Positions 421 to 44,243 of a stretch of 44,412 nucleotides of DNA are shown here, piece by piece. The notes beneath the pieces were generated by a model. It saw only the letters and a program-made list of their open reading frames with translations, was not told the DNA's origin and did not search any database. Each line of letters begins with the position of its first letter. Position 1 is the stretch's first letter. Source of the stretch: Prevotella sp. (GTDB lineage Bacteria > Bacteroidota > Bacteroidia > Bacteroidales > Bacteroidaceae); contig JAFZUS010000172.1 of assembly GCA_017618275.1 (NCBI GenBank), positions 1 to 44,412 of the forward strand. Direction: 5' to 3'. The translations under genes were made by a program, and so were the position numbers.

Positions 421-436
421 TTTTACAAACAGGTAG

Positions 437-444
437 TACCTTTG
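437..444 (+). promoter_or_regulatory. -7 promoter box for the leader and HU-like gene
   Basis: TACCTTTG matches TAnnTTTG. The flanking block (TTTACAAA, then about 12 nt, then CTTTTGCAC or similar) is shared with the other two leader copies at 25393 and 43818, which supports it as a real promoter. The predicted start of transcription is near 451, leaving an unusually long leader of about 145 nt before the HU-like ATG. Confidence 0.65.
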
Positions 445-462
445 CACTGTCAACGATGAGAC

Positions 463-538
463 GAAATTTGCGGCCTAACCAGGGAACAAAAATTTCCTAG
501 CGCGCGGGCACTTGTTTCCTAGGCAGGGCGCAAAACGG
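463..538 (+). ncRNA. Candidate structured leader RNA, copy A
   Basis: A 76-nt element that aligns without gaps to copies at 25393-25468 (minus) and 43818-43893 (plus). TTTGCG at element positions 5-10 pairs with CGCAAA at 67-72 in every copy. Inside, positions 12-14 and 19-21 form CCT/AGG around AACC, while the other copies have CAT/ATG around AACT, a compensatory change at 13-20. CCTAG (34-38) can pair with CTAGG (57-61). The element sits in the 5' leader of the HU-like gene, which begins 57 nt downstream. It may be a regulatory leader; no match to a named RNA family is claimed. Confidence 0.6.
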
Positions 539-595
539 AGTCGATTCGGCGACAGGTAAAAAAATTAAACGTTAACCATTAAAACATTAAAAACT

Positions 596-1271: not shown

Positions 1272-1388
1272 ATGATGAAGAAGAAGAGTTTCATTGAGAT
1301 TGCGGTGAAGGTGATAGTAGCCGCGCTCACAGCCTTCCTGACGGCCATCACGACCACGAGTTGCGCGGGCTACGGCCCTATCTACTAA
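1272..1388 (+). CDS. Smalltalk-type small membrane or lipoprotein, 38 aa
   Basis: ATG at 1272 opens a 38-residue reading frame: a basic start (MMKKKSF), a hydrophobic segment rich in Ala, Val and Thr (about residues 8-30), then TTTSCAGYGPIY and a stop. This is the layout of the family NCBI calls 'smalltalk' proteins, short Bacteroidales proteins usually coded just downstream of HU-like genes. The TTSCA site resembles a weak lipobox with Cys31, so a lipopeptide is possible. It lies 55 nt after the HU-like gene and is followed at once by a hairpin terminator, so the two are likely one transcript. Function unknown. Too short for many gene finders. Confidence 0.7.
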   Translation: MMKKKSFIEIAVKVIVAALTAFLTAITTTSCAGYGPIY

Positions 1389-1395
1389 GGGACAA

Positions 1396-1442
1396 TAAAA
1401 AAGACCGGCACGCTGAGTGTCGGTCTCTTTATTATTGTCTGT
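1396..1442 (+). terminator. Intrinsic terminator, 47-nt repeat copy 1
   Basis: AGACCGGCAC and GTGTCGGTCT (1402-1426) form a 10-bp stem with one G-U pair and a GCTGA loop, followed by CTTTATTATT. It ends the HU/smalltalk unit. The same 47 nt recur without change at 3788-3834. Confidence 0.8.
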
Positions 1443-25041: not shown

Positions 25042-25236
25042 ATAAACATTTGTTTAAACAATGTGATTGATACCATAAATAATCAGAATTAAACAAAAGT
25101 TTAACCGATTTTAACTGTTTAGACGATTTTTTGATGTTGTCCATACTCTTAAATTTAATTGTTACACAAAGATGGTGCAAAGATAGCAAATAATCTCGAA
25201 ACTAAAAAGAAAAATGGAAGAAAAGTATGTTATTAA

Positions 25237-25308
25237 CTACAGGGTCGCCGCGTGGCTCAGCCCGCGAAGGGCCTATTCATCGTAAATGGCAAAAAGGTCG
25301 TGATTAAG
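25237..25308 (+). pseudogene. Frameshifted Por-type C-terminal tail remnant
   Basis: The frame LQGRRV-AQPAKGLFIVNGKKVVIK is the exported-protein tail also seen at the end of the gene at 3843-4739. The codon just before is a stop, while the shifted frame reads an Asn there; one lost base would restore the usual N-L-Q-G-R-R-V. No gene body precedes it and no stop follows at once, so this is a decayed 3' end. It lies directly beyond leader copy B, on the opposite strand. Confidence 0.65.
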
Positions 25309-25392
25309 GCAGGGTTATTGAATCTCAGCATCCGTGAAAGAATGAACTTCTGGCTTCCCTGTATCATTTTTTTACTCGTTACTTATTTGACC

Positions 25393-25468
25393 CCGTTTTG
25401 CGTTATGCCTATGAAAAAAGTGCTATTAGGGCATAAAAAATTTGCTGCATAGTTATGCCGCAAATTTC
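25393..25468 (-). ncRNA. Candidate structured RNA, copy B (free-standing)
   Basis: The minus strand carries a 76-nt element that differs from copy C (43818-43893) at only 6 positions and keeps the TTTGCG/CGCAAA closing helix. Inside, GCAT-AACT-ATGC forms a hairpin, and TATGCC (34-39) pairs with GGCATA (60-65). The upstream block TTTTACAAA and CTTTTGCACTG is also shared with copy A. Downstream come the conserved GGGGTC and GTAAAAAAAT, but then only the antisense of a dead gene tail, not an HU gene. It could be an expressed small RNA or a relic. Confidence 0.6.
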
Positions 25469-25537
25469 CCCTCGTTATAGCCAGTGCAAAAGAATAGGCA
25501 ATTTGTAAAACTTTCTGACAGACGGCAATTCTGACGG

Positions 25538-25613
25538 ATGGCAGATGGCAGTTAGCCTAAATCGATTTGGAAATAAAGCCAAACCTAATTGCCATCTGCC
25601 ATCTGCCATCCAA
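25538..25613. repeat. Long inverted repeat of the CTGCCATC family
   Basis: GGATGGCAGATGGCAGTTAG (25538-25557) faces TAATTGCCATCTGCCATC on the other side, and the loop contains a smaller TTTGG/CCAAA hairpin. Together they can form a long cruciform or RNA hairpin. It lies 3' of the BspA-like gene (minus, ends 25712) and may end its transcript. On the minus strand its left part continues into TCTGTCAGAAAG and then directly into the promoter block of leader copy B. Confidence 0.75.
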
Positions 25614-31794: not shown

Positions 31795-31867
31795 AGCGGA
31801 AAACGGGACTCGGACCCGCGACCCCAACCTTGGCAAGGTTGTGCTCTACCAACTGAGCTATTTCCGC
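31795..31867 (-). tRNA. tRNA-Gly (GCC), copy 2
   Basis: On the minus strand a 73-nt cloverleaf: acceptor GCGGAAA/TTTCCGC, D arm GCTC...GAGC, anticodon loop TTGCCAA (anticodon GCC), T arm GCGGG-TCCGAGT-CCCGT with one mismatch/wobble and discriminator U. Identical to the copy at 32123-32195. No encoded CCA. Confidence 0.95.
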
Positions 31868-31878
31868 ATTAAAAACCG

Positions 31879-31962
31879 TGAAGAGGAGGAGACTCGAACT
31901 CCCACGTCGCAATTGACACTACCCCCTCAAAGTAGCGCGTCTACCAATTCCGCCACCTCTCC
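31879..31962 (-). tRNA. tRNA-Leu (GAG)
   Basis: An 84-nt class II tRNA on the minus strand. Acceptor GGAGAGG pairs with CCTCTTC; the anticodon loop TTGAGGG gives GAG; a long variable arm (TGTCAATTGCGACG region) follows; the T loop is TTCGAGT. Discriminator A, as needed for Leu. Confidence 0.95.
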
Positions 31963-31989
31963 AACAAAATCAATACTGAAAAAAAAGAG

Positions 31990-32071
31990 TGCCCAGAACA
32001 GGACTCGAACCTGCACGCCTCGCGGCACACGCACCTGAAACGTGCGCGTCTACCAATTCCGCCACCTGGGC
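31990..32071 (-). tRNA. tRNA-Leu (CAG)
   Basis: An 82-nt class II tRNA on the minus strand. Acceptor GCCCAGG/TCTGGGC; anticodon stem CACGT/GCGTG; loop TTCAGGT gives anticodon CAG; a long variable arm and TTCGAGT T loop follow; discriminator A. Confidence 0.93.
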
Positions 32072-32122
32072 ATTTTAACATCCGGCCCATTACCGGGATG
32101 TCTCTTTTTGTTCAATAAATGG

Positions 32123-32195
32123 AGCGGAAAACGGGACTCGGACCCGCGACCCCAACCTTGGCAAGGTTGTGCTCTACCAACTGAGCTATTTCCGC
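32123..32195 (-). tRNA. tRNA-Gly (GCC), copy 1
   Basis: A 73-nt tRNA, same sequence as 31795-31867. It is the first of four tRNAs in the transcript Gly-Leu-Leu-Gly read from the promoter at 32312-32342. Confidence 0.95.
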
Positions 32196-43738: not shown

Positions 43739-43775
43739 CAACTGCCATCTGTCAGAACTGCCATCTGTCAGAAAG
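43739..43775 (+). repeat. CTGCCATCTGTCAG tandem repeat, copy 3
   Basis: AACTGCCATCTGTCAG occurs twice in a row, then AAAG and TTTACAAA, the start of the leader promoter block. The same order (repeat, AAAG, TTTACAAA, promoter, leader) holds for copy B on the minus strand at about 25540-25500. Confidence 0.75.
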
Positions 43776-43817
43776 ATTTACAAAATGGCAGTACTTTTAC
43801 AACGTTAATAACGATAG

Positions 43818-43893
43818 GAAATTTGCGGCATAACTATGCAACAATTTTTTTATGCCTTAATAGCATTTTTTTCTTAGGCATAGCGCAAAACGG
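43818..43893 (+). ncRNA. Candidate structured RNA, copy C (free-standing)
   Basis: A 76-nt element, 70 of 76 positions identical to copy B, with the same closing helix TTTGCG/CGCAAA, GCAT-AACT-ATGC hairpin and TATGCC/GGCATA helix. The conserved downstream GGGGTC and GTAAAAAAAT are present, but the first ATG is followed at once by TGA, so no protein is read from it. No HU gene lies downstream. Confidence 0.6.
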
Positions 43894-43962
43894 GGTCTAA
43901 GAGGCAACAAGTAAAAAAATGTGACCGTTTTGTCCTTCTAAAACCATCCCAAAGTCGGAATT

Positions 43963-44161
43963 TTATGCCTGAGATTCAGTTCATACTTTTGCTGGGGCTG
44001 CAAAATCGTCCCAGCGTTCAGAGGAAGAAAATGCAGGGTATGCCAAACCTTGTCCGCGATTCGGTTCATAATTCTGCAAGGAATGCAAAATCGTCCCCGT
44101 GATTTGGTTTGCTTTTTTGCCAGGTGGGAATTTTATGCCCTGAAACCAGTTTGGACTTTTG
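43963..44161 (+). repeat. Degenerate repeats of leader-flank sequence
   Basis: Two repeat types overlap here. ATGCCTGAGATTCAGTT (43965) and ATGCCCTGAAACCAGTTTGG (44135) are copies of the block at 39961. A 40-nt block starting GATTC(A/G)GTTCATA and ending GCAAAATCGTCCC occurs at 43973-44012 and 44058-44097 with 33 of 40 matches. No believable gene runs through it; the segment looks like decayed promoter or mobile-element debris. The whole 43644-44328 gap holds no intact gene. Confidence 0.55.
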
Positions 44162-44216: not shown

Positions 44217-44243
44217 TCTGACGGATGGCAGATGGCAGTTAGT
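44217..44243 (-). repeat. CTGCCATCYGTCAG repeat, inverted copy
   Basis: On the minus strand it reads TAACTGCCATCTGCCATCCG then TCAGA. It faces the direct repeat at 43739-43775, so leader copy C lies in a segment of about 500 nt bounded by inverted repeats. Confidence 0.7.

Follow-up and report, generated by a model that had tools for sequence, protein, structure and literature searches.

The window analysed here is a whole contig of 44,412 nucleotides (C49 of genome G000), taken from a 3.6 Mb genome in 213 contigs. Near its start, on the plus strand, lies a gene (596-1216) encoding a 206 aa HU-HIG protein. In brief, the protein matches PF18291 with an E value of 2e-14 and 54.1 bits, against a cut-off of 26.2, and is a member of HU-HIG by this score; its match to TIGR01201 (56.3 bits) is under the cut-off of 68.6. 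The gene is headed by a 76-nt element, copy A (463-538, plus strand), which ends 57 nt before the HU-HIG start. A small hairpin, GTCG...CGAC, is predicted between the leader core and the start codon (540-553, plus strand). The putative promoter of copy A (422-444, plus strand) consists of TTTACAAA at 422-429 and the -7 motif TAnnTTTG at 437-444, and we assume that transcription starts near 452. Downstream of the HU gene, an ORF at 1275-1388 (plus strand) encodes a 37 aa smalltalk-like peptide. It scores 18.5 bits with NF033879, under the cut-off of 24.7, which is exceeded by the smalltalk peptides of the related loci L083 and L073; at both of these the hydrophobic peptide of this family is kept although the HU gene is broken. 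The ORF is followed by a terminator-like hairpin (1402-1426, plus strand); one such site was found against a shuffle mean of 1.5, which by itself is no more than chance. The window also holds a cluster of four tRNA genes on the minus strand (31795-32195).

Two further copies of the element are found in the window, copy B (25393-25468, minus strand) and copy C (43818-43893, plus strand). We did not find an HU gene downstream of either. The gap-free alignment of the three copies over 76 nt, described in the initial annotation, was reproduced, and with it the invariant ends GAAATTTGCGG and CGCAAAACGG, the 6 of 76 positions at which B and C differ when realigned, and the change at positions 13/20, which read C/G in A but A/T in the other two. 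Copy A differs from B, and likewise from C, at 22 of the 76 positions. The proposed 6-bp closing helix, TTTGCG/CGCAAA (467-472 with 529-534 in copy A), is present in the predicted folds of A and C and missing from the minimum-energy fold of B. The z-scores of the fold energies against shuffles are -2.96, -2.52 and -1.84 for A, B and C, respectively. An upstream promoter block had been thought common to all three copies; its -7 motif is intact in A only, B and C having an imperfect one.

Just upstream of copy B, at 25537-25610, there is an inverted repeat of GATGGCAG / CTGCCATC units. Such units are also found close to copies A and C and other gene-less copies, and are seen in the window at 61-90, 43743-43765 and 44218-44240 as well. 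One 17-mer of this dispersed repeat occurs, with at most one mismatch, at 15 places in the genome, and its reversed control at none.

A DNA search of the source genome gave eight places, and further searches added C119, C210 and C108. The element is not a chance occurrence, because this genome carries at least 11 strong copies. Two of the 11 precede whole HU genes (A and L006), two precede remnants of HU starts (L002 and L119) and seven are gene-less. Comparison of the window with Rfam (release 15) gave nothing on the element at the gathering score, and at E<=0.1 no match was found on it in nine element-bearing loci, in agreement with the earlier remark that no named RNA family fits. The only matches in these loci, to MIR7533, are upstream of two leaders (L053, 1179-1404; L031, 1192-1419), are far under the gathering score and probably represent repetitive DNA. 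A search of the open-licence literature gave no description of this leader.

A sequence-only model built from 17 copies was used for genome scans. It should be noted that at most the 13 best candidates of each genome were scored (10 in the protein scan), and that copy numbers are therefore lower bounds. Leader matches at E<=0.01 are present in 63 of 299 genomes of the genus. At E<=0.001 they are present in 30 of 301 genomes of the family, in 10 of 30 genera, where weak matches may be due to chance, and in 8 of 295 genomes of the order. The latter include the source genome and G700, which belongs to another family and has at least 13 copies; the other six have single weak matches (E 4e-4 to 8e-4) that may be chance. 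The HU subfamily, defined by a profile of four of these proteins at E<=1e-25, was found in 70 of the 299 genomes of the genus. It occurs in 49 of the 63 genomes with a leader at E<=0.01, and in 43 of the 44 with a leader at E<=1e-5 (hypergeometric 4e-32).

Among the fetched loci, 41 of 113 strong elements stand directly before an ORF with an HU-HIG match. The -7 motif is located at most 70 nt upstream in 39 of the 40 strong HU-linked leaders with enough sequence, against 0/34 and 1/34 in control windows farther upstream. For strong elements without HU the motif was found in 41 of 72, with 5/69 and 2/66 in the control windows. A second sample was taken from the protein side: the best 80 of 343 protein relatives were fetched as loci, and 69 were scored after 11 with less than 250 nt upstream had been left out. 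Most of these HU-first loci come from gut metagenome assemblies, many of them from ruminants, under the labels Prevotella, Prevotellaceae, Bacteroidaceae or Bacteroidales; Prevotella sp. tc2-28 and P. communis E15-14 (NZ_CP091794.1, with an HU leader at 1758801-1758898) are also among them. With a profile derived from the first set, the leader was detected at 57 of the 69 loci and not at the other 12. The prediction that many copies would be found upstream of HU loci agrees with this count. As is typical of a cis-regulatory leader, a promoter lies upstream, a gene on the same strand lies downstream, and the arrangement is conserved across loci and species. Judged from sequence, copy A is the 5' leader of the HU-HIG gene and one of a Prevotella leader family. 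The initial annotation had seen in it a promoter-driven structured leader controlling the HU-like gene; a promoter-linked, structured leader is supported, and leaders of the same type, with a promoter of the Bacteroidota kind, head HU-HIG genes in many Prevotella genomes.

For a closer comparison, 153 elements were reduced to 130 aligned ones by omitting partial matches and, for palindromic elements, antisense duplicates. The rows left out include two of 45 HU-linked elements (L211 and L213), so that 43 HU-linked leaders remain. These include truncated HU ORFs (L064, 46 aa; L110, 49 aa) and L027, which is cut by the contig end. L034 and L057, where only about 30 HU residues remain, were counted as not HU-linked. 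The alignment of the leader core is almost gap-free. At one site, with four adjacent centres allowed, a perfect palindrome of at least 6 nt is present in 42 of the 43 HU-linked leaders, the sole exception being L117. Eight hexamers occur here, namely GTGCAC, GCGCGC/CGCGCG, CCATGG, GTCGAC, CCTAGG, GCTAGC and ACTGGCCAGT, where GCGCGC and CGCGCG are overlapping registers; in copy A the site reads GCGCGCG (500-506, plus strand) and has both. The palindrome is flanked by a 5' A in 40 of 42 leaders and by a 3' purine in 40 of 42. It is present in 28 of 41 elements with a promoter motif and no HU ORF, and in 8 of 46 with neither. The difference between HU-linked leaders and promoter-linked elements without HU gives a Fisher value of 0.0003, not corrected for relatedness.

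The symmetry of the site was compared with a phylogeny-aware null, in which each column evolved alone along a tree built without the site (2000 runs). Palindromes in 42 of 43 HU-linked leaders were reached in none of the runs (mean 5.0, maximum 24), nor in 2000 column shuffles (mean 8.5). For promoter- or HU-linked elements pooled, 70 of 84 have a palindrome, against a null mean of 10.9 and a maximum of 44 (0/2000); the number of distinct palindromes alone was reached in 9 of 2000 runs for this pool. For the elements with neither promoter nor HU, the count of eight with a palindrome was reached in 30 of 2000. The idea of a palindrome arose on the first set and was retested on HU-first leaders absent from that set, 28 of 35 of which have it at the four adjacent centres (null mean 4.6, maximum 19, 0/2000). 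Eight of 59 leaders were scored as having none; in five of these (L233, L235, L257, L280 and L288) a palindrome lies just beyond the scored columns, judged by eye for L257, and they were not added to the 28.

Positions relative to the start give a similar picture. Among 64 HU-first transcripts with an assigned promoter, 59 show a palindrome containing four or more G/C at +46 to +55 or +60 to +67, a few of these being at another site or due to chance. The starts were assigned mechanically by promoter pattern, and a few are probably wrong (e.g. L277, L289, L299 and L303). The 59 include six of the 12 loci missed by the profile (L243, L262, L266, L292, L294 and L301), which have a CAGGCCTG or TCAGGCCTGA palindrome about 50 nt from the assigned start. 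When 13-nt windows were moved along 88 transcripts, the two central windows contained a palindrome in 41 and 53 of them and the others in 1-12. A 26-nt central window contained one in 83 of 88, against a mean of 19.6 in shuffled transcripts.

Leaders also precede a few non-HU genes. Two of these, at L035 and L069, start MNTPYYMIEEQKLRRN, and we take their protein starts to resemble carboxynorspermidine decarboxylase (nspC-like); both leaders have a palindrome only if G.U is allowed (GTGTAT and GTATAT). There is also a second leader type, with a GTGCAC site and a match limited to the first 56 positions. In L206, L207 and L212 of genome G525 it has a promoter and no HU ORF was seen downstream, and in L211 and L213 it occurs with an HU ORF.

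HU protein is a two-fold symmetric dimer. The perfect two-fold symmetry of the site, and its nearly fixed distance from the promoter, would suit a DNA operator just inside the transcribed region, where the HU-HIG dimer or another dimeric regulator binds and represses the gene. If the palindrome were the site of the encoded protein, similar proteins should share a hexamer. Yet in genome G265 the leaders L052 (GTGCAC) and L093 (CCATGG), which are 71% identical, precede HU proteins that are identical over 120 residues. Comparable pairs are also seen between genomes, and HU proteins that are only about 75% identical have GTGCAC in common. Among the sequences compared, the hexamer is independent of the HU protein sequence. 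An operator would in addition require as many specificities as there are hexamers, nine or ten, and most HU-linked palindromes end at the hexamer, yet the flanking purines are kept. We consider an operator quite unlikely, and a protein-specific one was rejected as the leading view since identical HU proteins follow different hexamers. A single regulator or a restriction site was rejected because the hexamers vary within one genome. Of six HU genes examined in G265, out of at least ten, two follow GTGCAC, one CCATGG and three GCTAGC.

A self-pairing nucleic acid accounts for a site that is symmetric yet not fixed in sequence. In several GTGCAC leaders the hexamer is predicted to lie in an 8- or 9-nt loop atop a long hairpin. 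The hexamer has an unpaired probability of 0.84-0.95 in the GUGCAC leaders inspected and of 0.47 in one GCGCGC leader. Averaged across 83 transcripts, openness is 0.70 for the palindrome and 0.50 for the leader, and the palindrome has the higher value in 60. It lies wholly in a loop of the minimum-energy fold in 36 of 59; the palindrome of copy A is partly paired in the predicted fold of A alone. Departures from pairing of the G.U and A.C kinds number 60 and 49, as in shuffles, and RNA is not favoured over DNA by this comparison. We nevertheless favour pairing of RNA over pairing of DNA because of the position of the palindrome inside the transcript, in a predicted loop and between flanking purines.

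The structure of the leader was studied in one class, represented by 26 members. When the fold predicted for one of them is imposed on all, 83% of its pairs are standard, against 40-59% when slid, a comparison biased towards the fold since it comes from a member of the class. Two-sided changes occur in 29 cells, against 4 to 16 slid; the pairs that show one number 7, within the slid range of 3-8. Paired changes include a pair of the 5' hairpin (A-U in 13, U-A in 8) and an apical pair (C-G in 10, G-C in 5), and the latter change accompanies the palindrome's shift by one base in leaders with CCATGG or CCTAGG. In the 26 leaders examined a further hairpin, of some 13 bp, is predicted immediately ahead of the start codon. 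A four-sequence consensus fold gave a hairpin in which both partners had changed in 3 of 24 pairs, and RNAalifold on the 26 leaders gave essentially no structure, with near-zero energy. Covariation beyond phylogeny had been set beforehand as a check on the structured RNA. The symmetric site passes it, whereas among ordinary helices no pair passed a phylogeny-aware, R-scape-like test (best E 0.2). By eye, the first hairpin arm might instead pair with one or the other of two direct repeats.

The other leader hairpins are also kept, with some paired changes, as could be the case in an ordinary leader that senses a ligand or a protein, where the palindrome would serve hairpin geometry or a trans partner and no homodimer would form. 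A palindrome brings no evident gain for a non-self partner, however, and the symmetry persists across eight or more hexamers. We give such a leader only a small probability.

The gene-less copies bear on a further claim of the initial annotation, that B and C make stand-alone small RNAs. These could, for example, serve as decoys for the leaders or the HU-HIG protein. The motif TAnnTT[TC]G is kept in three of the seven gene-less copies of the source genome, and the most conserved part of the gene-less copies is the first 25 nt of the core, both of which speak for transcription of small RNAs. Against this, the motif is imperfect in the other four, B and C among them, and the palindrome is retained in none of the seven. 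With this imperfect motif, and with no terminator-like site near B (25200-25560) or C (43740-44120) in consensus pattern scans, a weak test, neither was seen to have a promoter and terminator of its own, as a stand-alone small RNA would. The seven copies have GATGGCAG/CTGCCATC units upstream, in several as an inverted repeat, and part ways shortly past GTAAAAAAA, though B and L005 have about 60 nt more in common. Elsewhere, truncated HU starts follow leaders. At L002, L083, L084, L116, L119, L120 and L124 the HU start has only about 6-10 codons (MALKVKAV...) and is followed by unrelated sequence; at L034, L057 and L073 it has about 28-39 codons. Because several gene-less copies elsewhere keep a truncated HU start, B and C are likelier to be gene-less relics than small RNAs. 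They would be amplified copies of promoter and leader, without gene and without palindrome. The small-RNA reading was dropped as the default in view of the imperfect -7 motifs and the lack of terminator-like sites by pattern scan, and we regard it as very improbable for the gene-less copies at large.

In other genera and in G700 many of the matches are intergenic and made up of three hairpins, each a unit of about 24 nt with the core CATAACTATG or CCTAACTGGG. Arrays of such units (TTTTTCxTAACTxGxxAGCAAAA) were observed at L160, L174, L182, L187 (G700), L147 (G445), L161 (G694) and L220 (G504), the last of which, by eye, forms a single long inverted repeat whose arms measure 17 nt. With relatives of this kind at many intergenic sites, in other genera and one other family, and with a unit core, CATAACTATG, that is itself nearly palindromic, the whole element could be a dispersed DNA repeat, REP- or MITE-like, that stands before HU genes by chance and owes its symmetry to palindromic DNA. 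The promoter motif at 39 of 40 HU-linked copies argues against this, as does the perfect symmetric centre in 42 of 43 HU-linked copies against 8 of 46 without promoter and HU. Hexamers that change while staying symmetric are left unexplained by a repeat alone, and we find this account unlikely. The dispersed repeat may well be the origin of the leader and not its present role. The HU leader looks like a three-unit element that was fixed behind a promoter and whose middle unit was turned into a palindromic loop.

Two dispersed intergenic repeats of related bacteria can be compared by description. The BrickBuilt MITE of Porphyromonas gingivalis is built of 23-nt tandem units, 1 to 22.8 bricks in number, with long segments as leader and tail and with terminal repeats GAGACCTTTGCA.., and 1 of 19 copies adjoins a PF00216 gene (PMC4596501). 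Like it, the present element has units of about 24 nt and is dispersed between genes in Bacteroidales; unlike it, the Prevotella leader packs three units into 76 nt and has different ends. PINSR of Prevotella intermedia and P. nigrescens is, like the present element, dispersed in Prevotella and lacks terminal inverted repeats; it measures 188 bp and is present in 177 and 184 copies in two strains (PMC4755523). The Prevotella leader is linked to HU genes, whereas the excerpted account of PINSR describes no such link (PMC4755523).

We suggest, at about even chances, that the mRNA leader homodimerizes by a kissing loop to control HU-HIG synthesis. In brief, copy A would be the 5' untranslated leader of the HU-HIG gene, with transcription starting just upstream. 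The leader RNA would fold into a long hairpin that ends in a short stem-loop, as a rule A-(6-nt palindrome)-purine. A pair of identical leader molecules would then join via the palindrome as a kissing loop, possibly maturing to an extended duplex. The pairing would be RNA-RNA and homotypic, and would regulate translation or stability, so that output of HU-HIG, and of any smalltalk-like peptide encoded with it, would depend on the amount of its own mRNA. The hairpin of about 13 bp before the start codon, where present, would be the natural output. In autogenous leaders of the ribosomal-protein type a structured leader precedes the gene of a nucleic-acid-binding protein. The HU-HIG leader is arranged likewise, before such a gene. 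We know of no experiment on the role of multi-copy HU-HIG proteins.

The nearest likeness in the palindrome itself is to the HIV-1 DIS, described as a 5'-leader hairpin with a GC-rich 6-nt palindrome in its apical loop and conserved flanking purines (PMC7357161). GUGCAC, a palindrome of the DIS (PMC7357161), is also found in Prevotella leaders, again between purines. As in the DIS, self-complementarity over 6 nt is kept by covariation in the Prevotella site, and so are the flanking purines. The Prevotella element differs in being a bacterial mRNA leader, known from sequence, with several different palindromes in one genome, and we claim no kinship between the two.

Three tags (GTGCAC, CCATGG and GCTAGC) coexist in G265. 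Based on this, we speculate, with somewhat less confidence than an even chance, that the palindromes form a self-recognition code, in which paralogous genes for the same protein have different palindromic kissing loops, and each mRNA recognizes only its like and is counted on its own. Both leaders and kissing loops are of known kinds; a bacterial leader family with interchangeable self-complementary tags would, as far as the open-licence literature searched shows, be new. If true, these leaders would constitute a set of orthogonal RNA dimerizers that is natural and evolvable and occurs in a cultured strain, and would give a first handle on the regulation of multi-copy HU-HIG proteins.
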